IMG/VR virus record: IMGVR_UViG_3300033183_000142
Span: 1 to 36,029 of that record
Length of the DNA stretch: 36,029 nucleotides
Reading direction: 5' to 3' (one strand)
Source of the DNA: a virus
Shown here in pieces: positions 123 through 24,046 of the stretch. The position numbers and the translations under genes were made by a program. How positions within the stretch are numbered: the stretch's first letter is position 1; the number at the start of each line of letters is the position of its first letter. Under the pieces are notes generated by a model. The model searched no databases. It was not told the origin of the DNA and saw only the letters and a program-made list of their open reading frames with translations.

Positions 123-1132
123 CACAGCGTGGGACGAGTCAGAGTATTGCGGCAAGCACTGCGCTATTTCCTGTTGACAGATTTGAAGTAGGTTTTGGCT
201 CGCACGATCAAATTGTAGGCACGGTTTCTCAATCTACAACTGCACCGTCTGGATTTGCTAATTCAGCAAAAGTTGACATCACAACGGCAGAGACAACTTT
301 AGAAAGCGGTGAAGGCATTACATTTAGAACTAAGCTAGAAGGACAAGACCTTCAGCAGTTAGCTAAAGGGACTTCAGATGCTAAACAAGTAACGCTGTCA
401 TTTTGGGTGCGTAGTTCACAAACAGGTACTTACATTGCAGAGCTTTACGATGAAGACAATACTCGCCAAATCAGTAAAGCGTACACAATCGACACTGCTG
501 ATACTTGGGAACAGAAAGTAATCACATACCCTGCGGATACCACAGGTACATTTGACAATGATAACGGACGTTCATTGTGGATACTCTGGTGGCTAGCCGC
601 TGACAGTGGATTTTCTAGTGGCACTCTTAATGACGATGCTTGGGACACAGTTACGAATGCTAACAGAGCGGTAGGACAGACCACGTTAGTTACTAGCGTC
701 AACGACTGGTACATCACCGGAGTCCAACTAGAAGTAGGCGACACAGCCACACCGTTTGAACACAGAAGCTACGGTGAGGAGCTTGCGTTGTGTCAGAGGT
801 ATTTTTATATGCATAATTACAGTGCAGATAAAGCAGATGGTCGTGCGCCAGTAGTAAATGGTGCAAATTATTCCTCAACACAACTCTATGGCACTGTGTA
901 CTTTCCTACTGCGATGCGAGATCTACCTACATTAGATCAATCTTCAACAGGTACTTATAGATTGTTATCAGATGGTGATGCTACTCATACTGCGACAGGT
1001 TTTGGCACACAAAGAGTTAGTGAAAATGCTTATGTTTTGTCCTATACAACATCTGGCTTAACACCAGGATACGCAGGATGGGTCGAATCAAACGATACAA
1101 ATTGCTTCTTAGCCTTTAATGCGGAGCTATAA
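1..1132 (+). CDS. Tail fibre / virion structural protein (3' part; gene wraps the join)
   Basis: The reading frame is open from base 2 with no start in the window's left edge, because the gene begins at 35891 and runs across the circular join; the full protein is 382 aa. The N-terminus (MSQINVNSIKSSDGA) is a short adaptor type used by several phage fibres. The next part has the NLIINGAMQVAQRG and VDRF motifs, then a beta-rich carbohydrate-binding-like region (VTLSFWVRSS) and a conserved ending (ITGVQLEVGDTATPFEHRSYGEELALCQRYF). I know this pattern from many marine phage structural proteins. It probably sits at the tail tip and helps bind the cell surface, but the receptor is unknown. The ATG at 113 is an internal methionine and not the true start. 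The family is recognised with good confidence; the exact role is inferred from position at the end of the fibre cluster. Confidence 0.85.
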   Translation, partial: NSIKSSDGATDLLTLSNGSLTGAIATGGRRNLIINGAMQVAQRGTSQSIAASTALFPVDRFEVGFGSHDQIVGTVSQSTTAPSGFANSAKVDITTAETTLESGEGITFRTKLEGQDLQQLAKGTSDAKQVTLSFWVRSSQTGTYIAELYDEDNTRQISKAYTIDTADTWEQKVITYPADTTGTFDNDNGRSLWILWWLAADSGFSSGTLNDDAWDTVTNANRAVGQTTLVTSVNDWYITGVQLEVGDTATPFEHRSYGEELALCQRYFYMHNYSADKADGRAPVVNGANYSSTQLYGTVYFPTAMRDLPTLDQSSTGTYRLLSDGDATHTATGFGTQRVSENAYVLSYTTSGLTPGYAGWVESNDTNCFLAFNAEL

Positions 1133-5158: not shown

Positions 5159-5187
5159 TTTTAATTCCTCTATCAATCTATGTAAAT

Positions 5188-5216
5188 ATTGTACCACGGC
5201 TTGATTATTTTGTCAA
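5188..5216 (-). promoter_or_regulatory. Sigma70-type promoter for the minus-strand operon
   Basis: On the minus strand TTGACA (5211-5216) and TACAAT (5188-5193) are separated by exactly 17 bp. The predicted start of transcription is about 20-25 bases before the ATG at 5158. This is one base from full consensus and needs no phage factor, so the four genes down to 3980 are probably read immediately on infection. The TTGTC/GACAA dyad of the left composite element lies about 40 bp upstream. Confidence 0.85.
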
Positions 5217-5255
5217 TATATTGTTTATATGTTGCAGTTTTTATAAGGGGATTGA

Positions 5256-5406
5256 TATTGTCATCGAGAGACAATAGGTTTATATGCGGTAACATCGGTA
5301 ACACGGTAACAAACACGCCAGAGACTAAGAAGGACGCGGATTTTGGTGTTACTGAACATAACAACACTTTCGGTAACATCGGTAACATGATATAATGAGT
5401 GCGTAG
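5256..5406 (+). repeat. Left composite control element (dyad + CGGTAACA repeats)
   Basis: In order: a 7-bp inverted repeat TATTGTC-N7-GACAATA (5256-5276); three direct CGGTAACA repeats (5287-5294, 5296-5303, 5304-5311); TAAGAAGGACG (5326-5336); GTGTTACTGAACATA (5346-5360); two more CGGTAACA (5371-5378, 5380-5387); GAGTGCGTAG (5397-5406). The same blocks occur in the same order on the opposite strand at 17336-17478. The last two repeats cover the -35 region of the replication-operon promoter, which fits an operator. An iteron-type origin is the other possibility. Confidence 0.85.
5388..5396 (+). promoter_or_regulatory. Extended -10 promoter of the replication operon
   Basis: TGATATAAT is a full extended -10 (TGnTATAAT). 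There is no TTGACA-like box 16-18 bp upstream; this space is filled by CGGTAACA repeats ending one base before the TG. The promoter therefore either works on the extended -10 alone or needs a protein bound to the repeats. The leader to the ATG at 5465 is about 60 nt. Confidence 0.75.
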
Positions 5407-5464: not shown

Positions 5465-6991
5465 ATGAGTGCAGAGAGATTCCGGTCGCTTTTTACCGGA
5501 AATGATCGGTCCTTCGGTGTGTTCAATCCGAAGACCAATAAATTATTCACTAAAAATCAGCCAGTAGATTTATCTAATTACGAAGAACACCTGGAAGGCT
5601 CCAAAGGTGTTGGTATAGTGCCGATCATGGACGATGAGACATGTTGGTTTGGCGCGATCGATATTGATGCTCACGGCGATGCCCCAGATATTGATTTGTT
5701 AGAATTAGAGCAGAAGGTACGAGATAACGATTTTCCACTTACGATCTGCAGATCTAGATCGGGTGGAGCGCACCTATATCTATTTTTGACCGATCCTGCA
5801 CCTGCCAAGACATTAAGAAAGGTATTAGCGAATTGGGCAGGTGTTATAGGATATGCGGGTGTAGAGATATTTCCTAAGCAAGATAGTCTACCCGAATCTG
5901 GTGGCGAACGACAGCTTGGTAATTGGATTAATATGCCATATTTCGACGCTGAGGATACCAATAGATTCGCATTCGAAGGTGGCAAGAAAATCGACCTTAA
6001 CCACTTCTTAGACATCGCAGAGTCCAGGCGTATTAAACCGGCTATTCTAGTAGAAAAAGCCGAAGGTGGTTACGCGGAAGCCCCACCTTGTATTCAGAAA
6101 ATGATTACTGATGGTGTCGGCCATGGGCATCGCAACGAAGCATTATATAATTTGGTGCTCTATTATAAGAAAGCTAATCCCGAAACCTGGCGTGACAAGT
6201 CATTTGATGCAAATGCTACAATATTCGAAGAGCCGCTATCGTATGCTGAAGCCAAAAAGACTATTCAAAGTGCCGGTCGTCGAGATTATCGTTATAAGTG
6301 TAAAGAAGAGCCTTGCCGGTCCAACTGTAACAGCTCAGTATGCGTCACTCGCAAATTTGGCATTACGCCAGAGGAACGCGGCGAATTAGAGATCGGCAAG
6401 CCACCTGAATTTGATAAATTAGAAAAGTACACGACCGATCCGGTGAAGTGGGTATTGTATGTCGATGGTACGCCAATTACTCTGTCAACTGCCGAGCTTA
6501 TGGATTACCGCGCAGTGCGGCGAGCGATCGCTGACAATTTGACCCGTATTATCGCACCCATGAAAAATGACAAGTGGGAAGTGATGCTACATAAAATTAT
6601 GTCTGAAGCGATCGTAGTAGAAGCACCAGAAGAAGCATCGACCTATGGATTCATTAAAGATCGATTGTACGAATTCTTTGCACGTACAGATTTGTCGTCT
6701 GATGGTGAAAATATCGAGGAACGTGAAGCCCTATTCCTGGGGTCGCCGGTCGTACAGAAGGTAGACGGACAGCGAGTGGTATATTTCCGTGGACCGGATT
6801 TTATTGATTTTTTGAAGAAGAATCGATCGGAAGAACTGAAAGGGTCGAATTTATGGATGGCTCTTCGCCGAGTGGGAGTCCAACATACTAAATTAAGGGT
6901 GAAAAATCAAGTGGTGTCTGTCTGGTTTGCTCCGTTGAATGAATCAGATTATATCGAATTAACACCTGCTAGAGTGGAGCCAGAGATATGA
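5465..6991 (+). CDS. Archaeo-eukaryotic (AEP) type primase / primase-polymerase
   Basis: AEP catalytic motifs are visible: AIDID with D66 and D68, SRSGGAHLYLF with H103, and the later acidic motif EIFPKQ (~134-139) followed by GERQLGNWINMPYF. This order matches the primase domain seen in phage and TOTE-type systems. A helical PriCT-like region follows (GHGHRNEALYNL at ~220-230). Cys209 and the cluster C279, C284, C288, C293 suggest a zinc or iron-sulphur site. The C-terminal 180 residues are of unknown fold. It should make primers for the family A polymerase. It is the first gene of the operon with an AGAGAG ribosome site, and its last codons overlap the helicase start. Confidence 0.85.
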   Translation: MSAERFRSLFTGNDRSFGVFNPKTNKLFTKNQPVDLSNYEEHLEGSKGVGIVPIMDDETCWFGAIDIDAHGDAPDIDLLELEQKVRDNDFPLTICRSRSGGAHLYLFLTDPAPAKTLRKVLANWAGVIGYAGVEIFPKQDSLPESGGERQLGNWINMPYFDAEDTNRFAFEGGKKIDLNHFLDIAESRRIKPAILVEKAEGGYAEAPPCIQKMITDGVGHGHRNEALYNLVLYYKKANPETWRDKSFDANATIFEEPLSYAEAKKTIQSAGRRDYRYKCKEEPCRSNCNSSVCVTRKFGITPEERGELEIGKPPEFDKLEKYTTDPVKWVLYVDGTPITLSTAELMDYRAVRRAIADNLTRIIAPMKNDKWEVMLHKIMSEAIVVEAPEEASTYGFIKDRLYEFFARTDLSSDGENIEEREALFLGSPVVQKVDGQRVVYFRGPDFIDFLKKNRSEELKGSNLWMALRRVGVQHTKLRVKNQVVSVWFAPLNESDYIELTPARVEPEI

Positions 6992-8664
6992 AAATTGATT
7001 ATGTGAGCAATCGTTTTATAGTGCAGTGTAGCTTGGCTGAAAATGCGATGGTGTCGTTTATCCCATCAAAGAGGTATGATCGTCGCAAAGACATATGGGT
7101 AGTACAGAATCTAAATCGCAATTGTGATTATATGCTACGTCATCTGATGCAGTATATGACTGAATCCGCGATCGAAGTGGCCCAGGAGACAGTAGCTAAG
7201 AATACAGTTCGCTATGAGAAATTCCCATCTTGGTATAAATTCAAGACGATACCTTATGAGCATCAACGCCAGGCTATGGATTTTGCCTATGGCTTGACTC
7301 GATTTGCACTATTTATGGAGATGGGTACCGGTAAGACTAAGACAGTAATAGATCTATATTCAGCACATTTTATGTCTGGCAAGATTGATACCTGGATTGT
7401 ATTTTGTCCGGTCGATCTGAAGCGAAATTGGGAGCGCGAAATTGACATACATTGTCCTTTATCAGACATACCAGTGTATGTGATAGACTCAGGTAAGAAA
7501 GGAGAGAAGGCCGCATTAGAAGCTGTACAACAAGAGCGTTTTATAGCCATCGTAGGCATCGAGAGTCTCTCTGTTGGCTTCAAGAAAGGATCAGCCTATA
7601 AGTCTACCCTAGATTTAGTGGTCAACCGAAAGGTGGCGGTGTGTATTGACGAGTCACATAATTGTAAATCGGCAGACTCAAATCGATCTAAAAACGTACT
7701 ACAACTGTCGCAGACTGCCAGGATTATGAATATTATGACAGGCACACCAACAAGCCAAGGATTCATAGATCTATATATGCAATTTGAGATCTTGGACCCG
7801 AATATATTAGGCTTCGGTTCATTCTTCGCATTTAGATCTAGGTATGCAGTGATGGGCGGTTATGAGAACAAGCAGATTGTGTCATATCAGCACATAGATG
7901 AATTGATGGATCTGATTAAGCCGGTTACCTTCCAATGTACCAAAGAAGAAGCCCTAGATCTGCCACCCAAGACCTACACAGTCCTGGAAGTTGAGATGTC
8001 AGCCGAGCAGAAGAAGGCGTACAGGCAGATTAATGAGGATATGCGTACTGTCGTCGGCGATGATATCGAGGTGACGATCGAGCACATGATGACCAAATTC
8101 GGCGCATTGCAACAGATATCTGGTGGATTTCTCAATTACGATAATGAGTGGGAAGAGCGAGAGGCCAAGATATTGATTGAGCCGACCAAGAATCCAAAGA
8201 TACGCGAAATCATCAAATTGGCCGAAGATCACCCAGATAAATCAATTATCGTATGGGCCAAATATCGAGCTGAAATCGAGATGATCAGACAGGCTCTAGA
8301 GCCATTAGGCGGTGTATCTCAATATCATGGCGGTATCGAAGATCGCATGGAGCAGGTCGACGCATTTAATAACGGTACTAATCGCTTCTTTGTGTCTAAT
8401 CAGCAGACAGGCGGTACCGGCTTGAATTTGGTGGTATCCGATCTAGTGATCTATTATTCTAATTCGTTTAGATTGGTGGACCGGATGCAATCAGAAGATC
8501 GGTGCCACCGAATCGGCCAGAAGTCGAAGAAGGTGACATATGTAGATATATGGTGTAAGGATACCAAAGATGAACACATCTATTGTGCCATCTCGAACAA
8601 GCAGGATTTGGCCGACTACTTGCGGACCAAATTGGCCGATGGTAAACTTGCAGAGATCGAGTGA
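6988..8664 (+). CDS. SNF2-family superfamily 2 helicase
   Basis: The ~85-residue N-terminal part is followed by the two RecA-like lobes. Lobe 1 has the Q-motif-like PYEHQRQAM, Walker A GTGKT (113-117) and motif II DESH (221-224), then MTGTPTS as motif III. Lobe 2 has IIVWAKYRAEIEMI, QTGGTGLNL and the SNF2 motif VI DRCHRIGQ. The length of 558 aa is normal for the short phage members. It probably opens or remodels duplex DNA at replication start or forks, working with the primase whose stop it overlaps by 4 bases. No DnaB-type helicase is seen in the genome. Confidence 0.92.
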   Translation: MKIDYVSNRFIVQCSLAENAMVSFIPSKRYDRRKDIWVVQNLNRNCDYMLRHLMQYMTESAIEVAQETVAKNTVRYEKFPSWYKFKTIPYEHQRQAMDFAYGLTRFALFMEMGTGKTKTVIDLYSAHFMSGKIDTWIVFCPVDLKRNWEREIDIHCPLSDIPVYVIDSGKKGEKAALEAVQQERFIAIVGIESLSVGFKKGSAYKSTLDLVVNRKVAVCIDESHNCKSADSNRSKNVLQLSQTARIMNIMTGTPTSQGFIDLYMQFEILDPNILGFGSFFAFRSRYAVMGGYENKQIVSYQHIDELMDLIKPVTFQCTKEEALDLPPKTYTVLEVEMSAEQKKAYRQINEDMRTVVGDDIEVTIEHMMTKFGALQQISGGFLNYDNEWEEREAKILIEPTKNPKIREIIKLAEDHPDKSIIVWAKYRAEIEMIRQALEPLGGVSQYHGGIEDRMEQVDAFNNGTNRFFVSNQQTGGTGLNLVVSDLVIYYSNSFRLVDRMQSEDRCHRIGQKSKKVTYVDIWCKDTKDEHIYCAISNKQDLADYLRTKLADGKLAEIE

Positions 8665-8677
8665 TAGAGAGGTTACA

Positions 8678-8989
8678 GTGGCTAAAGTTTATGTAGTGCA
8701 GGAAAATTCGTACGTCGACTATTCGGATGCAGAACGCTTCGGCGAGGTCACATTCATGACTGCGGACGAATATAAGCCAATGAACAATTCACTTCGAAAT
8801 CGTTCGATAACCGATCAGATCAGAGGTCAGATGCTTCATTTTGAAGAAGACGATTTTCTGATTCTGACTGGTAATCCAACAGTGATTGGCTATGCCTTTC
8901 ATTGTGCATTAGAACGATTCGATGAGGTGAATATTCTTCATTGGGATAAAATATCGAGAGAGTATAGAGCATTTACGTTTAGAGGATAA
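8678..8989 (+). CDS. Unknown phage protein, 103 aa
   Basis: The frame is open further upstream, but the part before 8678 lies in the helicase gene; GTG at 8678 follows AGAGAGG at good spacing. The protein (VAKVYVVQENSYVDYSDAERFGEVTFMTADEY) looks alpha/beta, has no Cys cluster, and ends with an aromatic basic tail. The segment DDFLILTGNPTVIGYAFHCAL is like small phage proteins that accompany replication genes. No function can be given beyond membership in the replication operon. Confidence 0.65.
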   Translation: MAKVYVVQENSYVDYSDAERFGEVTFMTADEYKPMNNSLRNRSITDQIRGQMLHFEEDDFLILTGNPTVIGYAFHCALERFDEVNILHWDKISREYRAFTFRG

Positions 8990-8993
8990 ATAG

Positions 8994-9467
8994 ATGTTAG
9001 ATAGATTAGAGATGATGGCAGAGGAAACGCAAAAAGCGTTGGCCGACCTTCCTATCCAGGAAGAGTTAGAAAAAGAGGAGCTTCGCGATCTAGCGCGGCT
9101 TCAACAGCGATTAAAGGATCTGCACGAGCTGATGGACAAGAATAAGTCCGAAGTCGGTAAGTGTTTTGATATGCTCCGGGTCGCTGTTATCCCTAAAATG
9201 ATGGAAGACCAAGGTGTAGCTACGATTACTCTGTCTGGAATTGGAAGACTTCAATTGACAGATGATATTCGGGTTAAAGTCCTGGACAAGTCCAAAGAAT
9301 TTGAGTGGTTAGAGGAGACCAAAAATGGCGATTTGATCGCTCAAACGGTCAACGCTTCCTCGCTCAAAGCATTGCTTCGCCGATATTTGCGGGAAGGCAA
9401 AGCGATTCCGGAAGATGCTTTCGAAGTGTCTCCGTTTACCCGCGCATCAATAGTAAAGGAAAAATGA
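8994..9467 (+). CDS. Coiled-coil protein of the replication operon, 157 aa
   Basis: Residues ~5-60 are strongly helical and charged (coiled-coil-like: EELEKEELRDLARLQQRLKD). A small alpha/beta domain follows with ATITLSGIGRLQLTDDIRV and a conserved end NASSLKALLRRYLREG-KAIPEDAFEV. I have seen this C-terminal pattern next to ssDNA-binding protein genes in phages, but I know no assigned function. It lies one base before the ssDNA-binding candidate. A recombination or replication accessory is possible. Confidence 0.65.
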   Translation: MLDRLEMMAEETQKALADLPIQEELEKEELRDLARLQQRLKDLHELMDKNKSEVGKCFDMLRVAVIPKMMEDQGVATITLSGIGRLQLTDDIRVKVLDKSKEFEWLEETKNGDLIAQTVNASSLKALLRRYLREGKAIPEDAFEVSPFTRASIVKEK

Positions 9468-9468
9468 A

Positions 9469-10182
9469 ATGAGCACTAAAGCAGTAGCAACAGCGAAAGG
9501 TGACCAATTACCTGCGTTTTTGGCCGATAAAATGACCGATACCCGTGGCTCTGAAGAGATCGGTACCAATGATCTGACAATTCCCAGGATCGAATTGGTG
9601 CAGTCTCTGTCGGCTTGCCGCAAAAAGAATGATCCGGCCTATATTCCAGGTATCGAGGAAGGCATGTTGTATAACAATGTCACACGCGAGATGTATGGTG
9701 AATCTGTGAACGTAGTGCCAGTGTATTTTCGTAAGGAATACCTGCTCTGGCGCGACCAAGATTTAGGTGGTGGTTTTGGGGGATCCCATCAATCTATGGC
9801 GGAAGCGGAACAAGCTCGCCTAGCACAAGAGAAGCCAGAAGAGTGGGAAGTTGTAGATACGGCACAGCAATTCGTGTTAGTCATCAAAGAAGATGGCTCA
9901 GCCGAAGAAGCTGTGTTGTCAATGGCCAAGTCCAAGGCGAAAGTGTCGCGGAATTGGAATTCATTGATTCGTATCAACGGTGGGCCGCGTTTTTCTCGCG
10001 TTTACCGGTTGTCAGGTGTATCAGATCAGAATCCTGCCGGTCAGGATTACTTCAATCTGGCAGTATCTAACGTCGGCTTTGTCACTGAAGAGGTCTTTGG
10101 TCAAGCTGAACATATCTACGAGTTGATCAAGTCTGGTCAAGCTTCGGCTGATAGTTCATTTGATGGTGTAGACACAATGTGA
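9469..10182 (+). CDS. Candidate ssDNA-binding / recombination-associated protein, 237 aa
   Basis: The product has a conserved phage pattern: IPRIELVQSLSACRKKND, GMLYNNVTREMYG and VNVVPVYFRKEYLLWRDQ, then a Gly-rich loop and a beta-rich C-terminal half. Related phage proteins sit in the place of an ssDNA-binding protein in replication operons. There is no classic acidic C-terminal tail, so the assignment rests on context and partial recognition. A strong terminator just after this gene would raise its transcript over those downstream, which suits a protein needed in large amounts. Function should be treated as probable only. Confidence 0.5.
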   Translation: MSTKAVATAKGDQLPAFLADKMTDTRGSEEIGTNDLTIPRIELVQSLSACRKKNDPAYIPGIEEGMLYNNVTREMYGESVNVVPVYFRKEYLLWRDQDLGGGFGGSHQSMAEAEQARLAQEKPEEWEVVDTAQQFVLVIKEDGSAEEAVLSMAKSKAKVSRNWNSLIRINGGPRFSRVYRLSGVSDQNPAGQDYFNLAVSNVGFVTEEVFGQAEHIYELIKSGQASADSSFDGVDTM

Positions 10183-10188
10183 TATTAT

Positions 10189-10212
10189 GTGGCCCTTCGG
10201 GGCCACTTTTTT
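10189..10212 (+). terminator. Intrinsic terminator inside the replication operon
   Basis: GTGGCCC-TTCG-GGGCCAC gives a perfect 7-bp stem with a stable UUCG loop, followed directly by TTTTTT. It lies 6 bp after the stop at 10182 and 14 bp before the next ATG. No new promoter is visible before 10226, so the helicase, polymerase and Z-cassette genes depend on readthrough or antitermination. Confidence 0.93.
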
Positions 10213-10225
10213 ATAGAGGATAGAG

Positions 10226-11638
10226 ATGCGCAATTCAATTGTTATTTACGGTCCACCGGGAACTGGTAAGACTTCCAGGCTTGTACGTATTATCAAAGAA
10301 TATATTAATTCAGGTGTGGCACCTTCCAGGATTGGTGTGGTGTCATTCACAAAGGCGGCGGCTAAAGAAATGGCCGTTCGCGCTGACGAAGTAGGAATGC
10401 AGATCGCTACCTTGCATTCGTTCGCCTACCACCAAGCCAATATTATCAAAGATCAAGTGATCAACAATGAGTGGTTCAAGCTGTTCGCACAACACTCAAA
10501 GATTCAGATATCTGGTACCCAGAATTACGAGATCGAAGAATTAGGCGAAGGCGACGCTTATTTGTCTTTATACTCATATGGTCGATCGATCTTGAGTTAC
10601 GATTGGGCAACTATCTTTAAGAATGCGCCAACCATTGGTAGTTTGCCTAGATTCAATTATTTCATAGATTCGTATTGTGACTTTAAAGAGCAATTCGGCG
10701 TAGTTGATTTCTCCGATATGCTAGATCTAGCTTTACATAAGGCACCGGATCTAGATGTCCTAATTTTAGACGAGGCCCAGGATTTCACGCCGCAACAGTG
10801 GCAGTTGATTAGATCCTGGATTCCTGAGATCGAAACGGTAGTTATTGCAGGTGACGATGACCAAGCTATTTATAAATGGAATGGTGCCGATCCTGAGGGT
10901 ATGCATGCCTTCGAACGAAAGCATCAATCAGAGCGTATCATTCTTGACCAATCATACAGAATACCTAAAGCGGTCCATAGTCTGGCGAATACTCTAATTT
11001 CTCGTGTTCGATCGCGGGTACCAAAGGCGTACAAGCCAAGGGATTATGAAGGAACTGTTACCAGATATGCAGATGCCAGGTTGGTCAAATTCGACTCAGA
11101 TATAGATACTTTGGTATTGGTGCGTAATCACTCACTTAGGACCGATGTCGAAGCCGCTATGATGCAACGTGGCGTTCCATATATCTCCGAAGGCGGGAGA
11201 CCGGCTCCGTTAAATTCGCCGCAAGCTCGCGCTGTAAGACTATGGTTGTTGGCCCAGAAGTCCAAGGGAATGATCACGGATGCGCAGGAGCGGCAGATTA
11301 TTAGGCATCTCAAACCGATTTATAAGAATAAGCCATTCGACAAGCTACTTGCCATGAATTGGATGAATGCGTTAGAATTACCTAAGCCGTTATTGCATTA
11401 TTTGAGTGCGGTAGAAGGTGAATATGGACATCTACCCCTGGACCCCAAGATCCGTATTTCTACGATTCACGGGTCAAAAGGGCGCGAAGCTGATAGAGTG
11501 ATATTGATCAATGGAATGAGTCAACGTACTTACGAATCTCAGGACACAGACTCCGAGATTCGTACTTTTTATGTCGGCATCACTAGAGCGAAGAAAGAAT
11601 TAATAATAGTATCTGCTTTTAATGGAATACATATATGA
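10226..11638 (+). CDS. UvrD/Rep-like superfamily 1 DNA helicase
   Basis: All main SF1A motifs are present: Walker A GPPGTGKT (9-16), motif Ia SFTKAAAKEM, motif II DEAQD (182-186), motif III GDDDQAIYKWNGA, motif IV-like LDQSYRIP, motif V STIHGSKGREADRVIL and motif VI YVGITRAK near the end. At 470 aa it is shorter than bacterial UvrD (~720) and lacks long 1B/2B insertions, as is usual for phage versions. It should move 3' to 5' on ssDNA and assist replication or recombination. Its stop overlaps the polymerase start by 4 bases. Confidence 0.93.
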   Translation: MRNSIVIYGPPGTGKTSRLVRIIKEYINSGVAPSRIGVVSFTKAAAKEMAVRADEVGMQIATLHSFAYHQANIIKDQVINNEWFKLFAQHSKIQISGTQNYEIEELGEGDAYLSLYSYGRSILSYDWATIFKNAPTIGSLPRFNYFIDSYCDFKEQFGVVDFSDMLDLALHKAPDLDVLILDEAQDFTPQQWQLIRSWIPEIETVVIAGDDDQAIYKWNGADPEGMHAFERKHQSERIILDQSYRIPKAVHSLANTLISRVRSRVPKAYKPRDYEGTVTRYADARLVKFDSDIDTLVLVRNHSLRTDVEAAMMQRGVPYISEGGRPAPLNSPQARAVRLWLLAQKSKGMITDAQERQIIRHLKPIYKNKPFDKLLAMNWMNALELPKPLLHYLSAVEGEYGHLPLDPKIRISTIHGSKGREADRVILINGMSQRTYESQDTDSEIRTFYVGITRAKKELIIVSAFNGIHI

Positions 11639-13425
11639 TAGCGATAGATGTTGAGACCACCGGCGTTGATTGGACCACCGATCGCGTGTTTGGTGTGGCG
11701 ATAGCCTGGATTGAGAATGGCGAGATCAAGTCTGATTATTTTGATGTGCGACGCGATCCAGTTAGATACCAAGAATTGAAGAAGTACAAAGACACTTTGA
11801 TTGTAAATCACAATATCAAATTTGATATGCATATGTTGTTAAATGATGGTATTGAATTGCGTAATTGCGAATGTACAATGGTGCGAGCGGCGTTGATCGA
11901 TGAACACCGGCGCGATTATTCGCTAGACGCTTTAGCCAAGGATTATTTAAATGAGGCGAAAGTATCGGATATCTACGAAGAGTTGGCCGAGAGATTTGGT
12001 GGGCGAGCGACCAGAAACGCTCAAATGCCGAACTTACAACATGCGCCACCAGAGATTGTGGCCCCTTACGCCAAAAAAGACGCTGAACTTGCATTAAGGC
12101 TTTACGTTGCACAGCAGGATCTATTACCACCGGTGTGGGAGTTAGAAAAACGTTTATTTCCCTACATTTTCAGAATGGAACGCGAAGGCGTACGAGTTGA
12201 CCTGGAAGAGGCCGAGCGCAGACAGCAGATGTTGAATCCGCAGATCGCTCAAATGCAAAAGCAGTTAGACCAAATTGCCGGGTTCGCTGTGAATCCTAAT
12301 CCATCAAAATCGATACATGAACTGTTCGACCCTAAAAAAGGAACAGATGGCCTATGGCGAGCTTGTGATGGTACTATTTTGCCTGAGACACCTGCGGGTA
12401 AACCGTCGATCGGCTCAGCTTCATTACAGATTATGAAACATCCGGCGGCTCGTCTGATTATTCAGATTCGCAAATTGACCAAGACGCGAGATACCTTTAT
12501 CGGCTCGCATATTATGGGCCATGCTCGCGGCGATCGAGTACACCCGAATATCAATCAGACCAAAAGTGATGGCGAAGGTGGTACCGGTACCGGTCGACTA
12601 TCCTACACCAAACCGGCATTACAGCAGATACCGTCACGTGACAAAGAGATCGCGAAGATCGTACGGCCTATTTTTGTACCAGACGATAGTATGGGTTGGT
12701 CGTACGGCGATCTAGATCAACATGAATTACGCATCTTTCACCATTATGTCAACAATTCAGAGATCGTACAAGCTTATATTGATAATCCAGATCTAGACGG
12801 GCATGCCGCAGTATCAGAATTGACCGGGCTACCAAGGAATCCACCACCAGAAGGTGGCGCAAATGCTAAGCAGATGAATTTAGCTATGGTGTTTAATATG
12901 GGCGGCGGCGAGCTTGCGGCGGCGATGGGCCTACCGTATACTACCGACACCTGGCATGGCCGCGAGATTAAAGTTGCCGGACCTGAGGCTCAGAAGATCA
13001 TAGACGACTATTACCAAATGATACCTGGAGTTAAGGAGATCGCGCAGAAGGCTAGATCTATCGCCAAGAGTCGCGGCTACGTTAGAACATTGATGGGTCG
13101 CCATATTAGATTTCCGGGTGGCGAATTTACCCACAAAGCATCGGGCCTAATTTACCAAGGCACAGCCGGTGATTTGAACAAGGATAACATATGCAGGATT
13201 TTCGAATATTTAGATGCCGAATGCCCAGATGCCAGGTTGCTTCTAAACATTCACGATGAATATTCGATTTCGCTCCCATTTGGCGGAGCATCAAAGCACC
13301 TTCGGGCAATTAAGGAGGAAATACAAAGAAGACCCGAAATCAGAGTACCGTTACGAATAGACTTTTCAGAACCACAAAGCAATTGGTGGGACGCTACATG
13401 CGCACCCATCATCACAGGAGAGTAA
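11635..13425 (+). CDS. dpoZ: Family A DNA polymerase with 3'-5' exonuclease (DpoZ-type)
   Basis: The exonuclease domain has intact metal ligands: D5 and E7 (AIDVETTG), D64 (NHNIKFD) and Y145/D149 (YAKKD). The polymerase domain has motif A D359-LDQHELR, O-helix K412-QMNLAMVFNMGGG and motif C IHDE with D541. The position of E. coli Phe762 is Leu416, and Tyr766 is Phe420; motif A is DLDQHE where DYSQIE is usual. There is no 5'-3' exonuclease domain. It lies directly before purZ, which is the place of DpoZ in known Z-genome siphoviruses, so it probably inserts 2-aminoadenine opposite thymine. The DpoZ name rests on context; the polymerase call is certain. Confidence 0.93.
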   Translation: MIAIDVETTGVDWTTDRVFGVAIAWIENGEIKSDYFDVRRDPVRYQELKKYKDTLIVNHNIKFDMHMLLNDGIELRNCECTMVRAALIDEHRRDYSLDALAKDYLNEAKVSDIYEELAERFGGRATRNAQMPNLQHAPPEIVAPYAKKDAELALRLYVAQQDLLPPVWELEKRLFPYIFRMEREGVRVDLEEAERRQQMLNPQIAQMQKQLDQIAGFAVNPNPSKSIHELFDPKKGTDGLWRACDGTILPETPAGKPSIGSASLQIMKHPAARLIIQIRKLTKTRDTFIGSHIMGHARGDRVHPNINQTKSDGEGGTGTGRLSYTKPALQQIPSRDKEIAKIVRPIFVPDDSMGWSYGDLDQHELRIFHHYVNNSEIVQAYIDNPDLDGHAAVSELTGLPRNPPPEGGANAKQMNLAMVFNMGGGELAAAMGLPYTTDTWHGREIKVAGPEAQKIIDDYYQMIPGVKEIAQKARSIAKSRGYVRTLMGRHIRFPGGEFTHKASGLIYQGTAGDLNKDNICRIFEYLDAECPDARLLLNIHDEYSISLPFGGASKHLRAIKEEIQRRPEIRVPLRIDFSEPQSNWWDATCAPIITGE

Positions 13426-13427
13426 AA

Positions 13428-13688
13428 ATGTCAGATTACGACAATACAAACAGTGGCGCATTATTTCTTAATAACAATCGAAAGACCGATAAGCACCCAG
13501 ATTTGACCGGCACTATCAACATTAATGGTAAAGATATGTGGATTTCCGGTTGGACCAAGGTCGCTAAATCAGGCAAACGAGCAGGGCAAAGGTACGTGTC
13601 TCTAGCTGTTAATGAGATGGACGAGCAACCATCAAGTCCAGGTTCAATTGGCTCAATTTTAGACGATATCAACGGACAATTGCCATGA
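13428..13688 (+). CDS. Small DUF736-like phage protein, 86 aa, between dpoZ and purZ
   Basis: ATG at 13428 follows AGGAGA at good spacing and is preferred to the upstream in-frame ATG at 13383, which lies in the polymerase gene. The sequence has the pattern DNTNSGALFLNNNRKTDKHP, then TGTININGKDMWISGWTK and a GQRYVSLAV strand, ending in a flexible acidic tail (SILDDINGQL). This small beta-barrel type is common in phage replication modules and could be an OB-fold-like ssDNA binder. Overlap with purZ by 4 bases couples it to the Z-genome genes. No enzymatic residues are seen. Confidence 0.7.
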   Translation: MSDYDNTNSGALFLNNNRKTDKHPDLTGTININGKDMWISGWTKVAKSGKRAGQRYVSLAVNEMDEQPSSPGSIGSILDDINGQLP

Positions 13689-14752
13689 AAAATGTAGATG
13701 TAATTTGCGATTTGCAGTTTGGATCGACCGGTAAGGGCTTAATTGCCGGGTATTGGGCTAAACAGAATGAGCCAGACGTAGTGGTTACTGCTTGGTCTAT
13801 GAATGCCGGGCATACCTTTATCGATGACGATGGCACCGAATATGTACATTGTATGTTGGCCAATGGTATCGTATCACCTAAAATTAAGTATGTGCTCATT
13901 GGTCCTGGATCTCAAGTCGGACTCCGGAAGCTGTTCGAAGAAGTACGAGATTCTGGTTTTGATAAGCCGGTGTATATACACGAACATGCTTGTATCATTC
14001 AGCAACGTCATATCGACCAAGAGAATGAGGTTATGACCGGAATTGGCTCGACTAAGAAAGGATGCGGAGCGGCTCTTGCTGAGAAGATTGGTCGAAATCC
14101 ATTAGCACCGATCGTGGCCAAGCATTATCGAGATGAAGTGATGCGTCTATGCAAAGAATACCGCGTCGATGTCGAGGTGTTGTCGAGTGCTGAGTATAAC
14201 AAAATGGTTGATGCGGCCAAGTTAATCCAAGTCGAAGGCGCACAGGGATTTTCGCTTGGTATTAATTCTGGCTTCTACCCTTATACTACGTCTCGTGAGT
14301 GCACACCCGCTCAGATAATGGTAGACTGTGGATTACCTATCCGCAAGATGCGCCATGTTATCGGCACTATGCGTACTTATCCTATTCGTGTGGCTAACCG
14401 GTATGATGACATGGGCGAGATGGTCGGTTGGTCTGGACCTTGTTACCCAGATCAGCATGAGATATCGTTCGAGGATATTGGCGTTAGCCAGGAATTGACG
14501 ACTGTTACTCAGCTACCGAGGCGTATTTTTACATTCTCGAAAGATCAGACCAAAGAGGCCGTTCGTATGGTGCGTCCTGATTATGTATTCTTGAATTTCA
14601 TCAACTACTGCCAGGATTCAGACGAGGCTTTACAAATCATTAATACGATTGACAATATTTGCCATTGGTACGGCCTGTCCGGTGTCACGCATTTAGGCGT
14701 TGGACCGAAAGTCACAGATGTGGTACCATATAGTGGGGAGCTTAGATTGTGA
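13685..14752 (+). CDS. purZ: PurZ, 2-amino-2'-deoxyadenylosuccinate synthase
   Basis: This is a 355-aa adenylosuccinate synthetase homologue (bacterial PurA ~430 aa). The PurA loop GDEGKG, with the catalytic Asp, reads G13-S14-T-G-K-G here; Ser in that place is the mark of phage PurZ. The NAGHT motif with His43 is kept, as are GIGSTKKGCG (119-128) and the EGAQG motif (184-188) before TTSRECTPAQ. PurZ joins aspartate to dGMP, using a nucleoside triphosphate, to make the succinyl precursor that host PurB cleaves to 2-amino-dAMP; kinases then make dZTP. Neighbours mazZ, datZ and the polymerase complete the pathway. The Ser14 replacement argues clearly against simple AMP synthesis. Confidence 0.94.
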   Translation: MKNVDVICDLQFGSTGKGLIAGYWAKQNEPDVVVTAWSMNAGHTFIDDDGTEYVHCMLANGIVSPKIKYVLIGPGSQVGLRKLFEEVRDSGFDKPVYIHEHACIIQQRHIDQENEVMTGIGSTKKGCGAALAEKIGRNPLAPIVAKHYRDEVMRLCKEYRVDVEVLSSAEYNKMVDAAKLIQVEGAQGFSLGINSGFYPYTTSRECTPAQIMVDCGLPIRKMRHVIGTMRTYPIRVANRYDDMGEMVGWSGPCYPDQHEISFEDIGVSQELTTVTQLPRRIFTFSKDQTKEAVRMVRPDYVFLNFINYCQDSDEALQIINTIDNICHWYGLSGVTHLGVGPKVTDVVPYSGELRL

Positions 14753-15372
14753 GAGATGACCAAAACAAGCCTAAAATGTCATTGATCGACCCTAATTTCG
14801 AAGAACAGCTAGCGCGAGTCCTGGAATTAGGCGAGATCAAATATGGCGGTCCAGATTGGAAAAAGGGTATGGATTTCTCTATCATGATCGATGCGACGAT
14901 TCGCCACTTGAATGAGATCAAGAGACATCAATTCTACGATAAAGAGTCTAAGCAATCACATATGGCACACGTTGCCGCAAATATGATGATGCTGAATTAC
15001 TACATGGACAATTATTCGGATTATGACGTATTCGATAATTTGAAGTGGGTATCACCTGGCAATTTTGCTCGTAGAGACCAGATCGGCGATCTGCAAGAGC
15101 GGATTACCAGTTGGGCAGATAAGATTTTCCCAGAACGGACACCTTACGATGCTCTCCGAAAAATGGTGTTAGAAGAAATACCGGAATTGCTACATGAAGG
15201 ATTAGACGATCCTGAGGAGTGGGCCGATGTATTTATTCTGATGTTTGATGCCGCGAATCTTCGAGGAATCGATATCGTCAAGGCGACTAATGATAAAATG
15301 ACAAAAAATGAGGCTCGTAAATGGAAGCTCAACAAAGAGACTGGATTGATGAACCACGTGAAATCGGACTAA
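14749..15372 (+). CDS. mazZ: MazZ-type (d)GTP pyrophosphohydrolase with extra N-terminal domain
   Basis: Start GTG overlaps the purZ stop (GTGA) and has GGGGAG 8 bases before it. Residues ~6-85 match the DUF5664-type dATP/dGTP pyrophosphohydrolase domain (KPKMSLIDPNF, LELGEIKYG, IRHLNEIKRHQ, SHMAHVAANMMML). Residues ~115-195 form a second MazG-like domain with E142, E143, E146, E157 and D160 (EExxE...ExxD), and the related ending NDKMTKNEARKW. MazZ hydrolyses (d)GTP to (d)GMP and so feeds PurZ. The two-domain form may come from fusion of two members of the all-alpha NTP-PPase group. Which domain is active on dGTP cannot be read from sequence. Confidence 0.88.
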   Translation: MRDDQNKPKMSLIDPNFEEQLARVLELGEIKYGGPDWKKGMDFSIMIDATIRHLNEIKRHQFYDKESKQSHMAHVAANMMMLNYYMDNYSDYDVFDNLKWVSPGNFARRDQIGDLQERITSWADKIFPERTPYDALRKMVLEEIPELLHEGLDDPEEWADVFILMFDAANLRGIDIVKATNDKMTKNEARKWKLNKETGLMNHVKSD

Positions 15373-15875
15373 CACTGGCTGATGTCTTAAGATCTTCTGA
15401 TGTCAACCGGTGGCAGATTGTCAGAACTTCCAGGCATCAATCAGTAGCCGAGCACACCTTTAATGTGATGTTGATTGCGTTGGATATCGCAGAATCAATG
15501 GGCATTGAAGATCAGCCTTCTATAATGAAATGCGCTCTGATGCATGATTTACCAGAGGTGTTGACCGGTGATGTTGCTACGCCTACTAAGAGAGTCCTGG
15601 GTATCGGCGATCGATTAGAGCAGATCGAAGCTCTAATTTCATACCGAGGTATTAAGACCCAGGATTACAGTGATGTAATCCGCCACATCGTAAAGATGGC
15701 TGATTTGGTGGAGGCCGCACATTTCCTTCACCATTTCGGAATTGGGCCGCATGCTCAATCGGTGTTGGACCAGATAATCAGGCGTATTAATACGTTCCCA
15801 GAGGCACGAGCGGCCTTCGCGAGAGCTTTGGACTCGACTCCGACCACGATAGACGGTGCTTATGGCGCGACCTGA
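15321..15875 (+). CDS. datZ: DatZ, HD-domain dATP triphosphohydrolase
   Basis: The start lies 52 bases inside mazZ, with GAGG 7 bases upstream, so translation is coupled. HD metal ligands are H45 (VAEH), H75-D76 (MHDLPEV) and D128 (MADLVEA), the plan of YfbR-like nucleotidases. The pocket residues I recall from S-2L DatZ (W20, I22, P79) appear to have counterparts W31, I33 (RWQIV) and P88 (VATPTK); the D76-to-D128 spacing of 52 also fits. DatZ removes dATP, leaving dA, so that the polymerase sees mostly dZTP. At 184 aa it is close to S-2L DatZ length. Together with purZ and mazZ this is the S-2L-like complete triad. Confidence 0.92.
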   Translation: MEAQQRDWIDEPREIGLTLADVLRSSDVNRWQIVRTSRHQSVAEHTFNVMLIALDIAESMGIEDQPSIMKCALMHDLPEVLTGDVATPTKRVLGIGDRLEQIEALISYRGIKTQDYSDVIRHIVKMADLVEAAHFLHHFGIGPHAQSVLDQIIRRINTFPEARAAFARALDSTPTTIDGAYGAT

Positions 15876-16248
15876 AAGGAAGGTCAAGGAGAGGCTCCGG
15901 AGGGCTATTCCTGCGGGGTTTTCTCTTCATATGATAGAACTGAGGACCGGCGAGGTAGGTTGGCCAGATATGATCTACCTTGGACCGGATCGGAAATGCG
16001 GATTCATTGAAGCTAAATGGATCTACTCTTATACCAATCCTCTAGGCCGGTGGGAAGTACCACAGCGTACTTGGGCTAAAAAGCGACTAGAGATGGGATT
16101 TCCTTGTTATGTACTAATTGGCGATGCCTTGAATACCTGGCTTCTAGATGCGGCTGTACACCTGGAATCTGACGTTATCCTGGAGTCTGTCGGCAAGTGG
16201 GGAAAATCTATCAATAAACTCGAATTACAAAATATATTGACAAAATGA
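15862..16248 (+). CDS. VRR-NUC-like nuclease (PD-(D/E)XK fold), resolvase candidate
   Basis: The core G-W-P-D-M-I followed by GFIEAKW gives the PD...ExK catalytic arrangement, and a C-terminal RTWAKKRLEMGFPCYVLIGD is typical of VRR-NUC domains. The start ATG at 15862 overlaps datZ; a GTG at 15856 is an equal alternative and adds two residues. Such single-domain enzymes cut branched DNA, so Holliday junction or flap processing in replication is likely. It closes the overlapping gene chain from the polymerase onward. A strong promoter for the next genes lies over its last codons. Confidence 0.85.
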   Translation: MARPERKVKERLRRAIPAGFSLHMIELRTGEVGWPDMIYLGPDRKCGFIEAKWIYSYTNPLGRWEVPQRTWAKKRLEMGFPCYVLIGDALNTWLLDAAVHLESDVILESVGKWGKSINKLELQNILTK

Positions 16249-16265
16249 TCGAATTTTGATATAAT
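16237..16265 (+). promoter_or_regulatory. Full-consensus sigma70 promoter
   Basis: TTGACA (16237-16242) and TATAAT (16260-16265) are separated by 17 bp, and TG stands one base before the -10 (extended). The -35 overlaps the end of the nuclease gene. The transcript would begin near 16272, directly at a GGGG-AGAGA-CCCC hairpin (16274-16286). It serves three small genes ending at the terminator at 17273. Confidence 0.92.
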
Positions 16266-16273
16266 AAACATAT

Positions 16274-16286
16274 GGGGAGAGACCCC
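16274..16286 (+). promoter_or_regulatory. 5'-end hairpin of the 16.3-17.3 kb transcript
   Basis: GGGG and CCCC pair around AGAGA exactly at the predicted 5' end of the RNA from the consensus promoter. Such hairpins protect phage mRNA from 5'-end-dependent decay. It leaves the ribosome site (GAGG near 16306) free. Confidence 0.45.
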
Positions 16287-16317
16287 GGTATTGATAGATC
16301 AAATAGAGGTAATAGAG

Positions 16318-16533
16318 ATGACACAAACAGAAGCTTTCAACATGGTACGCGGTCTTGGTAAGGCTGCTTTAACCAAAGGCTTGATCAAGAAGCACGACAG
16401 CACCGAGTTATTCATCGGTTTGGCTGTCTATCGTAAGCTCGATATGAAAGGTCACGACGCAGAGCTTGACCAAGCATACGAGATTGTTAAAAGCTACGTG
16501 GTCGAGGAGATTGCAAATGAAATTAATATCTAA
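16318..16533 (+). CDS. Small acidic helical protein, 71 aa
   Basis: The frame is open to a TTG at 16291, but ATG at 16318 has GAGG 8 bases upstream and gives a natural start (MTQTEAFNMVRGLGKAAL). The protein is mostly helical with an acidic end (VVEEIANEINI) and no Cys or membrane segment. It is the first product of a very strong promoter, so it should be abundant early. This position is typical for host-takeover or regulatory proteins, but no family is recognised. Confidence 0.68.
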   Translation: MTQTEAFNMVRGLGKAALTKGLIKKHDSTELFIGLAVYRKLDMKGHDAELDQAYEIVKSYVVEEIANEINI

Positions 16534-16702
16534 GATCCTTTGGGAAGTGTACGGAGTCGGACCTAGGTCCGCTCCACGCGCTACCGTTTCCTGGGCCAAA
16601 GCTCGAATTGAGCTTCAATACGGGTGGCGCACAGCCGATGCCGAAGTCACGGCACTTAATAAGTGGAGAGCCAAAAAAGGCTATCCGTTAGCATACGTTT
16701 AA
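16517..16702 (+). CDS. Small basic protein, 61 aa
   Basis: ATG at 16517 overlaps the previous gene by 17 bases and has GAGGAG 8 bases before it. The protein is basic with several Trp and Arg residues (WAKARIELQYGWRTADAEV, NKWRAKKGYPLAYV) and could bind nucleic acid, though no helix-turn-helix is clear. It is expressed from the 16237 promoter. It is among the few candidates in this genome for a factor that binds the CGGTAACA elements. Confidence 0.6.
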   Translation: MKLISKILWEVYGVGPRSAPRATVSWAKARIELQYGWRTADAEVTALNKWRAKKGYPLAYV

Positions 16703-16717
16703 TAGAGGAATAGTGAA

Positions 16718-17260
16718 ATGAGATTAATAGCAAGAGCAACGCCAGGTTCATACGTCAAAGCTGACGCAACTGGTACAGGTGATTGGGTGATTGGCCGAAT
16801 CGTATCGATGGATCGTCGCGATCGTGTGACAATCAATCCTGCCGACAATTCTGAACAATTAGTGGTGATCAAAAGTGAAGTCTATAAAGCTACCAAAGAA
16901 GAATACGAGACGTACCTTGAAAAAGCGATCGATTGCTCGACAGAGAGCGATGAAGTTATTGAATCTGTTTCAGAGGAAGCTCAAACGATCGTGAAAGACA
17001 AATACCGCCAAAGATACAAAATATCGGTATCACCTGAAGGTCGCAAATCACTACACAATGGTGATGTCGTCGCGCTGATGCTCGAAGGCAAAAATGTACA
17101 TGAGTGTTATTCAGTCGTCGCCACTGAGACGAAGACTAGTATTCACACCTTAATGCAAAAATGGTCGCATCTGAATAACGGACAGCAACGTATGCTACTT
17201 GGTAATTACCTTCGCAAGCACTACAAAGAGAATGGTTGGGAGCCACCCAAAAAGGATTAA
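16718..17260 (+). CDS. Conserved phage protein, 180 aa, two-part, unknown function
   Basis: Residues 1-70 are beta-rich (SYVKADATGTGDWVIGRIVS) and could be a small barrel that binds nucleic acid. A Glu-rich linker at ~72-95 leads to a C-terminal helical domain (PEGRKSLHNGDVVALMLEGK, then LNNGQQRMLLGNYLRKHYKENG) that I recognise in many phage proteins of unknown role. The C-terminal part resembles small DNA- or regulator-type domains in size and charge. It is the last gene before a strong terminator. It is another candidate binder for the neighbouring composite element. Confidence 0.65.
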   Translation: MRLIARATPGSYVKADATGTGDWVIGRIVSMDRRDRVTINPADNSEQLVVIKSEVYKATKEEYETYLEKAIDCSTESDEVIESVSEEAQTIVKDKYRQRYKISVSPEGRKSLHNGDVVALMLEGKNVHECYSVVATETKTSIHTLMQKWSHLNNGQQRMLLGNYLRKHYKENGWEPPKKD

Positions 17261-17272
17261 TCAAATACTACA

Positions 17273-17294
17273 GGGGTCTACGGACCCCTTTTTT
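17273..17294 (+). terminator. Intrinsic terminator ending the replication region
   Basis: GGGGTC-TACG-GACCCC forms a 6-bp GC-rich stem with a tetraloop, then TTTTTT. It is 12 bp after the stop at 17260 and separates the early/middle region from the control region and late genes. Confidence 0.94.
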
Positions 17295-17335
17295 ATAGGT
17301 ACTTGACAAATGAAAAATGAGACGTTCCAGGGTAT

Positions 17336-17478
17336 CTACGCACTCTTTGTTACCGCTAAAAATATATCTTCAGTTACACTTCGTCAACATAATCAATACC
17401 CGTCCTTCTTAAAATGTAGAGTGTTTGTTACCGTGTTACCGTGTTACCGTATTCACCAAATATTGTCACTCGCGACAA
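17336..17478 (-). repeat. Right composite control element, inverted diverged copy of the left one
   Basis: On the minus strand the order matches the left element: TTGTC-N6-GACAA dyad (17463-17478); three tandem CGGTAACA (17442-17449, 17434-17441, 17426-17433); AACAC; TAAGAAGGACG (17401-17411); GTGTAACTGAAGATA (17365-17379); one CGGTAACA (17348-17355); GAGTGCGTAG (17336-17345). The gap between the third repeat and TAAGAAGGACG is 14 bp in both copies. The second repeat and the TATAAT present on the left are absent here, so no inward promoter is left. The remainder of 17295-17599 holds only this element, the late promoter and its leader terminator. Confidence 0.85.
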
Positions 17479-17510
17479 ATTCACCGTCCTATTAAAGTAA
17501 CGACTACAGC

Positions 17511-17539
17511 TTGATTTAAAATAGTGATAGTGTTAAAAT
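17511..17539 (+). promoter_or_regulatory. Late-operon promoter upstream of terS
   Basis: TTGATT (17511-17516) and TAAAAT (17534-17539) with a 17-bp spacer. The dyad of the right composite element ends 32 bp before the -35 box. The transcript would start near 17546 and meet an intrinsic terminator within about 25 nt. It is the only good promoter I see before the ~19 kb of morphogenesis genes. Confidence 0.78.
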
Positions 17540-17567
17540 GCAGTTGGGTTCCCTCAATACCCCTGTT

Positions 17568-17590
17568 GCCCACCTTCGGGTGGGCTTTTT
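17568..17590 (+). terminator. Terminator in the late leader (antitermination/attenuation candidate)
   Basis: GCCCACC-TTCG-GGTGGGC is a perfect 7-bp stem with a UUCG loop, followed by TTTTT and 9 bases before the terS ATG. It lies downstream of the 17511 promoter, so it would stop late transcription by default. It could also block readthrough from upstream. Confidence 0.9.
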
Positions 17591-17599
17591 CAGAGATCG

Positions 17600-18001
17600 A
17601 TGATGGATAAAAAGTGTTCGAGCAAAGAAGAGCAATTCTGCATAGAGTACGTCCAATCAGGCGGCAAGCTTGCGGACTCTTACATGTCGGTATATACCTG
17701 GACAGGATCCAAAAACGGTTTGACAACAGCCGCATCACGTCTGCTAAAGAGACCACACGTAGAAGCCAGGATAGAGGAATTAAGGGCTAAAGTAGTGGAA
17801 AAGTGCCAAATCACACTCGAACAACACCTGGACGATTTAAAACGTCTACGCGATAAGGCTGAACAAGATCAGAAGTGGCAAGCCGCTATTTCTGCTGAGG
17901 TAAACCGGGGCCGCGCTTGTGGTCTGTATGTGGAGAAAGTAGAGCATGAAAACGCACCGACACCACAAATTGTAATTAATCGACCTTCAGATGCAGATTA
18001 A
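17600..18001 (+). CDS. terS: Terminase small subunit
   Basis: The protein of 133 aa has the Terminase_2-like N-terminal helix-turn-helix region (SSKEEQFCIEYVQSGGKLADSYMSVY, with SRLLKRPHVEARIEELRA following), then a coiled-coil-like oligomerisation region at ~70-105. It recognises viral DNA and hands it to the large subunit. ATG at 17600 and a second ATG at 17603 are both possible. The 3' end overlaps terL by 11 bases. Confidence 0.88.
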   Translation: MMDKKCSSKEEQFCIEYVQSGGKLADSYMSVYTWTGSKNGLTTAASRLLKRPHVEARIEELRAKVVEKCQITLEQHLDDLKRLRDKAEQDQKWQAAISAEVNRGRACGLYVEKVEHENAPTPQIVINRPSDAD

Positions 18002-23843: not shown

Positions 23844-23850
23844 GGTAATT

Positions 23851-23874
23851 GGGGCGGCATTAGTCGCCCCTTTT
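23851..23874 (+). terminator. Partial terminator after the capsid gene
   Basis: GGGGCG and CGCCCC pair around an 8-base loop, followed by TTTT. The short T run and the absence of a new promoter downstream suggest partial stopping that keeps capsid mRNA above tail mRNA. It may also protect the 3' end of capsid transcripts. Confidence 0.7.
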
Positions 23875-23890
23875 CCTATTGGAGGTCAAA

Positions 23891-24046
23891 ATGACTGAAG
23901 AAAAGAAAGAAGCACCAAAGAAACGCGGTCGGCCTAAAAAAGAGTCGAGCGATCTGGTTAAGATGGTCCACGAAGATGGTCGAAAGGCTGATGTTCACCC
24001 ATCTATGGTTGATGCCTACAAATCAGGCGGATACAAAGAGGTTTAA
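23891..24046 (+). CDS. Small protein with AT-hook-like motif, 51 aa
   Basis: A strong GGAGG site precedes the ATG. The N-terminal half is very basic, with KKRGRPKK, which is an AT-hook-type minor-groove binding motif (core GRP). The C-terminal half (VHPSMVDAYKSGGYKEV) is a conserved pattern in small phage proteins between capsid and neck genes. It may be a head-completion or DNA-associated protein. In a genome predicted to carry 2-aminoadenine, which puts an amino group in the minor groove of A-T pairs, an AT-hook is notable. Confidence 0.8.
   Translation: MTEEKKEAPKKRGRPKKESSDLVKMVHEDGRKADVHPSMVDAYKSGGYKEV

Follow-up and report, generated by a model that had tools for sequence, protein, structure and literature searches.

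How is terS, the first late gene of this phage, transcribed if a strong terminator-like hairpin stands between the gene and its promoter? The window (the whole stretch of viral DNA analysed here, 36,029 nucleotides) carries a sigma70-type promoter at 17511-17539 that is followed by such a hairpin, T2. The initial annotation had interpreted this pair as a probable antitermination switch comparable to the lambda Q, 82 and 21 systems.

Genome setting and the promoter ahead of terS

The record of the window looks complete and bears an end repeat of 122 nt. The replication genes (primase, helicases, DNA polymerase and SSB) occupy positions 5465-16248 together with PurZ-, MazZ- and DatZ-like genes. 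Three small genes (p71, p61 and p180) come next, and the perfect consensus promoter of their operon is the best promoter match across the 9 kb scanned. This operon is closed by the terminator T1, and a hairpin with a short T-run is found at the T1 position in the related genome G001 (locus L098). The late genes begin with terS, continue with the portal, capsid and tail genes, and reach holin and endolysin on the other side of the end repeat. Because the genes at 16318-17260 end at T1 and the late genes follow, the 17511 promoter stands at the early/late border. The coordinates of the features are collected in Table 1.

Table 1. Features of the early/late border and of the iteron modules (window coordinates unless a locus is named)
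Feature	Position	Strand	Remarks
Left iteron/inverted-repeat module, ahead of primase gene	5265-5396	-	Repeated where the early block ends
Perfect sigma70 consensus promoter, p71-p61-p180 operon	16237-16265	+	TTGACA-17-TATAAT, extended -10
p71, small protein	16318-16533	+	No recognisable relatives in phage collection
p61, small protein	16517-16702	+	No recognisable relatives in phage collection
p180	16718-17260	+	Predicted Tudor/SH3-like N-terminal barrel and helical C-terminal domain
T1, terminator closing early operon past p180	17272-17295	+	Unchanged in L003
Three tandem iterons GTTACCGT	17427-17450	+	Unchanged in L003; inverted copy at 5286-5310
TTGTC...GACAA inverted repeat, right-hand module	17463-17478	.	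Counterpart in left module and in relatives
-35 element TTGATT of late (terS) promoter	17511-17516	+	Unchanged in sister contig L003
Extended -10 element TGTTAAAAT	17531-17539	+	Unchanged in L003 while spacer changes
Likely transcription start, G17546	17546	+	Inferred from promoter geometry, 7 nt past -10
T2, intrinsic terminator-like hairpin and TTTTT	17568-17590	+	Begins at ~+23, runs to ~+45; unchanged in L003
terS, first late gene	17603-18001	+	PHROG terminase small subunit (1.7e-10); Pfam Terminase_2
Module pair, window	5180-5400 and 17395-17480		
Module pair, L017 / L098	7330-7530 / 730-960		
Module pair, L018 / L097	9780-9960 / 714-840		
Module pair, L100	20925-21146 / 42959-43173		

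The 17511 promoter consists of TTGATT, a 17-nt spacer with TGT at its end and TAAAAT at 17534-17539, which together provide an extended -10 element. Taken by itself, a 9/12 promoter match is no more frequent than expected by chance (23 sites vs 19.7 ± 3.4 in shuffles); plus-strand extended -10 sites number just three in the whole window, including the one at 17511. The interval from the hairpin to terS contains no promoter candidate, so late RNA from the 17511 promoter has to cross the hairpin. The 17511 promoter is likely the late promoter, since the early/replication block stops at 17260 with T1 and the terS, terL, portal and capsid genes come next.

The close relative used for comparison is one sister contig, L003, with ~91% identity in coding DNA. 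Divergence between the window and L003 amounts to 8-11% of bases in coding genes and 5.6% in the intergenic region. The -35 element and TGTTAAAAT show no change in 15 bases, vs 5 of 14 in the spacer between them (Fisher p = 0.017), which is the fastest-changing stretch. The T2 hairpin and T-run are also free of changes (0/23), a result expected by luck in ~15-27% of cases at the local divergence. Conservation is highest from 17395 to the -35 element, where 2 of the 116 nt that end at 17510 differ. The terS start at 17603 aligns better with L003 than does 17600. A 61-aa open reading frame at 17310-17495 was rejected as a gene: its start region is altered and a stop codon is present in L003, and the region is thus taken as non-coding.

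Terminator T2 and the region before terS in relatives

The T2 hairpin (17568-17585) is composed of GCCCACC-UUCG-GGTGGGC with a 7-bp stem and is followed by TTTTT at 17586-17590. The stem alone has a minimum free energy of -13.9 kcal/mol (z = -4.1 vs shuffles). Terminator strength was measured with a d'Aubenton-Carafa-type score. Strong intrinsic-terminator-like sites number four in the whole genome (10189, 17273, 17568 and 23851), and a score of at least 20.3, the level of T2, was reached by one site in ten whole-genome shuffles, both strands included. T2 is far above chance. The gap between the likely start and the stem is 22 nt, and the stem opens at +23. The sequence and coordinates of TTGATT-17-TAAAAT and of the UUCG hairpin with TTTTT before terS were given correctly in the initial annotation, and its spacing of ~20 nt is right if transcription starts at G17546. 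Stretches 10-60 nt downstream of such a promoter make up 5.1% of the plus strand, so the odds that one of the four terminators is paired with one are ~19%; at about one in five, the pairing alone is weak evidence.

The T-run of T2 is short (TTTTT, then CAGAG), and the ribosome site of terS is located directly 3' of it. No RNA family in Rfam matches. An antiterminator RNA fold in the leader was considered and rejected, because a start at 17546 leaves just GGGU to compete with the stem.

A late promoter is common among the relatives, whereas T2 is known only from the window and L003. Relatives found on the basis of the primase include SH-Ab 15497, PMBT28 and Kokobel2. In G001, p180 is followed by an intergenic region and terS, with a -10-like TGGTATAAT just upstream of the terS start. 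G002 (locus L097) contains TTGATT-18-(TGT)TAAACT a few bases ahead of the terS start, SH-Ab 15497 contains TTGGCA-17-(TGT)TATAAT immediately ahead of terS, and PMBT28 has a promoter-like site in the same place. The interval from promoter to terS holds no terminator in any of these four genomes. SH-Ab 15497, G001 and G002 share with the window the order of iteron module, promoter and terS; PMBT28 differs in that its second module lies farther upstream in direct orientation, whereas the module of the window is inverted and adjoins the promoter. The lack of a T2-like terminator in these four relatives points to T2 as a putative lineage-specific attenuator, which the lineage of the window and L003 alone would have gained or retained. 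Among other comparisons, the TerS relatives L103-L106 show no comparable promoter or terminator ahead of terS, and the context of the TerL relatives L004-L014 is mostly different, with terminator-like hairpins near terS in L007 and L010.

Hairpins are also present in other co-directional gaps of these genomes. The gap between phrog_2402 and the helicase gene contains a hairpin in 8 of the 8 genomes examined, including the window (10183-10226), and a T-run in five of them (the window, L017, L018, L019 and Kokobel2); PMBT28, K21lambda1 and SH-Ab 15497 have kept the hairpin and lost the T-run. A post-capsid hairpin occurs in 7 of 7 genomes, the window included (23844-23893), with a T-run in about half. 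Attenuator-like hairpins are thus ordinary in this phage group. A 9/12 promoter with an extended -10 element was also noted at 10160-10188; it abuts the 10189 terminator, and its start would sit in the 5' arm of the hairpin. This arrangement weakened the argument for obligatory read-through at each strong terminator of the genome.

Antitermination and the rival explanations

Two sequence elements are required at a Q promoter: a site for Q that lies between -35 and -10, and a pause element that resembles a -10 and is transcribed first (PMC6606751). At 17540-17570, no hexamer combines A at position 2 with T at position 6, and the best candidate matches at 3 of 6 positions. The spacer contains an ATAGTG-ATAGTG tandem; it was rejected as a conserved Q-binding site because it is broken by the spacer changes in L003. 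The Q families PF06530 and PF03589 are absent from the record, which agrees with the initial statement that no Q-like gene is recognised. The NusG N-terminal domain (PF02357, NusG/LoaP-type) is likewise absent, and none of the genes scanned matches a PHROG antitermination family. On the plus strand of 16200-17600, no boxA with at most one mismatch and no boxB with at most three mismatches of the N/nut type were detected. The window is similar to the Q late promoters of lambda, 82 and 21 (pR'-tR') in having a late promoter with a downstream terminator at the early/late border, but it differs from them in that it has neither a pause element nor a Q gene, its spacer lacks a conserved site for Q, and its terminator is missing in relatives. 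The resemblance to these systems that had been claimed is not upheld by these results and by the failure to find NusG genes.

The AlpA-controlled promoters of Pseudomonas aeruginosa offer another comparison. Their terminators begin at +26 at PA0807 and at +54 at alpB (PMC7969949). The likeness consists of a sigma70 promoter with a close intrinsic terminator before the first gene, at ~+23 in the window; the difference is that the spacer, where AlpA binds, is unconserved in the window, and the AlpA-binding motif (GGGACG-N5-GGTA) is not visible at 17511-17539. AlpA is an antiterminator but not a recognised Q homologue (PMC7969949), so the absence of Q homologues is weak evidence, and since AlpA runs a promoter with a terminator at +26 without a recognised Q, an unrecognised factor is possible in the window as well. 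P7 of phage Xp10 is reported to prevent bacterial RNA polymerase from stopping at intrinsic terminators (PMC6624301). It is a precedent for a block of termination by a phage protein, but p71 and p61 have no sequence match to P7 among solved structures.

The initial annotation sought the factor among the small proteins encoded at 16318-17260. No convincing structural match was obtained for p71 and p61. The p180 family is spread over related phages and phiVC8-like phages, and its C-terminal domain (W/Y-SHLN-G-QRM--GN--R) is common to phiVC8-like phages, Alteromonas phage ZP6 and PMBT28. The p180 model has a pTM of 0.40 and no fold match at E <= 0.001; NusG is among the weaker fold matches, and the C-terminal part matches Fis weakly (E = 0.03). 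A role of p180 as a dedicated antiterminator was rejected because its family also occurs in phages without T2. This part of the proposal is consequently dropped for p180, and p71 and p61 stand as candidates by position only.

The favoured explanation, to which a probability of roughly 45% is assigned, is passive attenuation rather than an all-or-none switch of the Q type. Host sigma70 RNA polymerase would start near 17546 and meet T2 at +23 to +45, where part of the transcripts would stop as a ~43-45-nt RNA, while the remainder would continue through terS and the structural genes. In this role of attenuator close to the promoter, T2 would reduce late transcription, chiefly because termination is partial and passive; both the termination itself and the passive nature of the read-through are inferred. 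Passive attenuation is placed first because the relatives manage without the step and hairpins occur in other gaps: with a promoter-like site, terS right after it and no terminator in L098, L097, SH-Ab 15497 and PMBT28, this type of phage appears to need no antitermination step ahead of terS. The conservation of the promoter elements while the spacer changes in L003, the place of T2 among the four best terminators of the genome, the hairpins in other co-directional gaps of the same genomes and the results for the Q-type features are all consistent with it. Against passive attenuation, T2 is a strong terminator directly behind the sole late promoter visible for a ~20-kb operon, an arrangement that is regulated in the studied cases (lambda-type Q and AlpA); the PA0807 terminator at +26 is close to the +23 found here (PMC7969949), and the conservation of T2 is drawn from one sister contig.

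A regulated switch with AlpA- or P7-like logic, in which p71, p61, p180 or another phage protein loads on RNA polymerase at the 17511 promoter or shortly past it and carries the enzyme across T2, is somewhat unlikely. In its favour are the +23 layout matching AlpA PA0807, the persistence of promoter and T2 in L003, and a perfect early promoter (16237) that heads three small genes ending at T1, one of them (p180) with a predicted Tudor/SH3-like barrel and NusG among its weaker fold matches. However, the spacer that would hold a Q or AlpA site differs at 5 of 14 positions in L003, where the ATAGTG tandem is broken; no pause element and no Q- or NusG-family match were found; and p180 belongs to a family found in phages without T2, with all fold matches at E > 0.001 and a model pTM of 0.40. 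The term "probable antitermination switch" is therefore too strong, as the Q features are lacking and p180 is not dedicated to the hairpin. Alternatively, T2 may serve chiefly at the mRNA level, as a hairpin in the 5' leader that shields or structures the terS message, and may cause little termination owing to its short T-run. The ribosome site right past the T-run and the gap hairpins kept before ribosome sites without a T-run in PMBT28, K21lambda1 and SH-Ab 15497 are in its favour, but the score and stem fit a good terminator and the T-run is unchanged in L003, which makes this reading unlikely. It is highly unlikely that the pairing arose by chance, with T2 as a fail-safe after T1 for upstream transcripts and the 9/12 promoter unused or not the main one: although the promoter score alone is at chance and the pairing odds are ~19%, the promoter elements, with their extended -10, are conserved while the spacer drifts, L097 and SH-Ab 15497 carry similar promoters at the corresponding position, and no other late promoter candidate lies ahead of terS.

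No description of transcription control in this lytic-looking phage group was found. Should T2 be regulated, the late genes of this phage would be switched without Q, and the three small early proteins would be the immediate candidates; should it be passive, this would be a clean case of a lineage that added an attenuator to a late promoter which its relatives run without.

Probable 2-aminoadenine DNA and the two-copy iteron module

Genes similar to purZ, mazZ and datZ (PHROG/Pfam matches) are located together at 13685-15875, beside a family A DNA polymerase gene. In S-2L, the purZ/mazZ/datZ cluster makes 2-aminoadenine (PMC8342488). The DNA of the present phage probably contains 2-aminoadenine (Z) in place of adenine, as judged from this gene content. 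The rU:dZ hybrid that forms on Z-substituted DNA is held by three hydrogen bonds. The function of an intrinsic terminator on a Z template is a direct question for a phage that probably carries Z in its DNA, and the literature search turned up no study of intrinsic terminators on such a template.

Upstream of the late promoter lies an inverted counterpart of the sequence that precedes the primase gene (79% identity over 78 nt, E = 2e-12). In both modules of the window, GTTACCG iterons stand in tandem and are accompanied by a TTGTC...GACAA inverted repeat. A further copy of GTTACCGT is present at 17349-17356; in the left module, the -35 region of a rightward promoter overlaps with two additional iterons (5370-5386). 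Another contig with three GTTACCGT, L016, was set aside; it is 82 kb long, looks unrelated and has the repeat in a longer array. The same two-copy arrangement is found in relatives, while the iteron differs from phage to phage. The inverted modules of G001 have TGTAGAA-like iterons (86% over 140 nt), those of G002 have TGTAG/TGCAACA-like iterons (81% over 112 nt), and those of SH-Ab 15497 have the GAGCAACC iteron (71% over 233 nt), with the second copy just ahead of terS. In PMBT28, Kokobel2 and K21lambda1, the matching pieces are in direct orientation and are located within the early region or where it ends. The second module is thus inverted and directly ahead of the late promoter in the window and three relatives. 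The likeness of the copies within each genome, although iterons differ between phages, points to a binding protein common to both copies and to exchange between them. Their form and position beside the primase gene indicate that the modules may be replication-origin-like. It is quite unlikely, but conceivable, that late transcription is linked to replication through the second, origin-like iteron module beside the late promoter, and that T2 is gated by a new antiterminator family or by the DNA itself, with a terminator that halts RNA polymerase on ordinary DNA being leaky on a Z template because of the three hydrogen bonds of rU:dZ.

The leftward early promoter at 5187-5227 shows 76% identity over 41 nt with the 16237 promoter (16226-16266) in the opposite orientation, TTGACAAAAT included.
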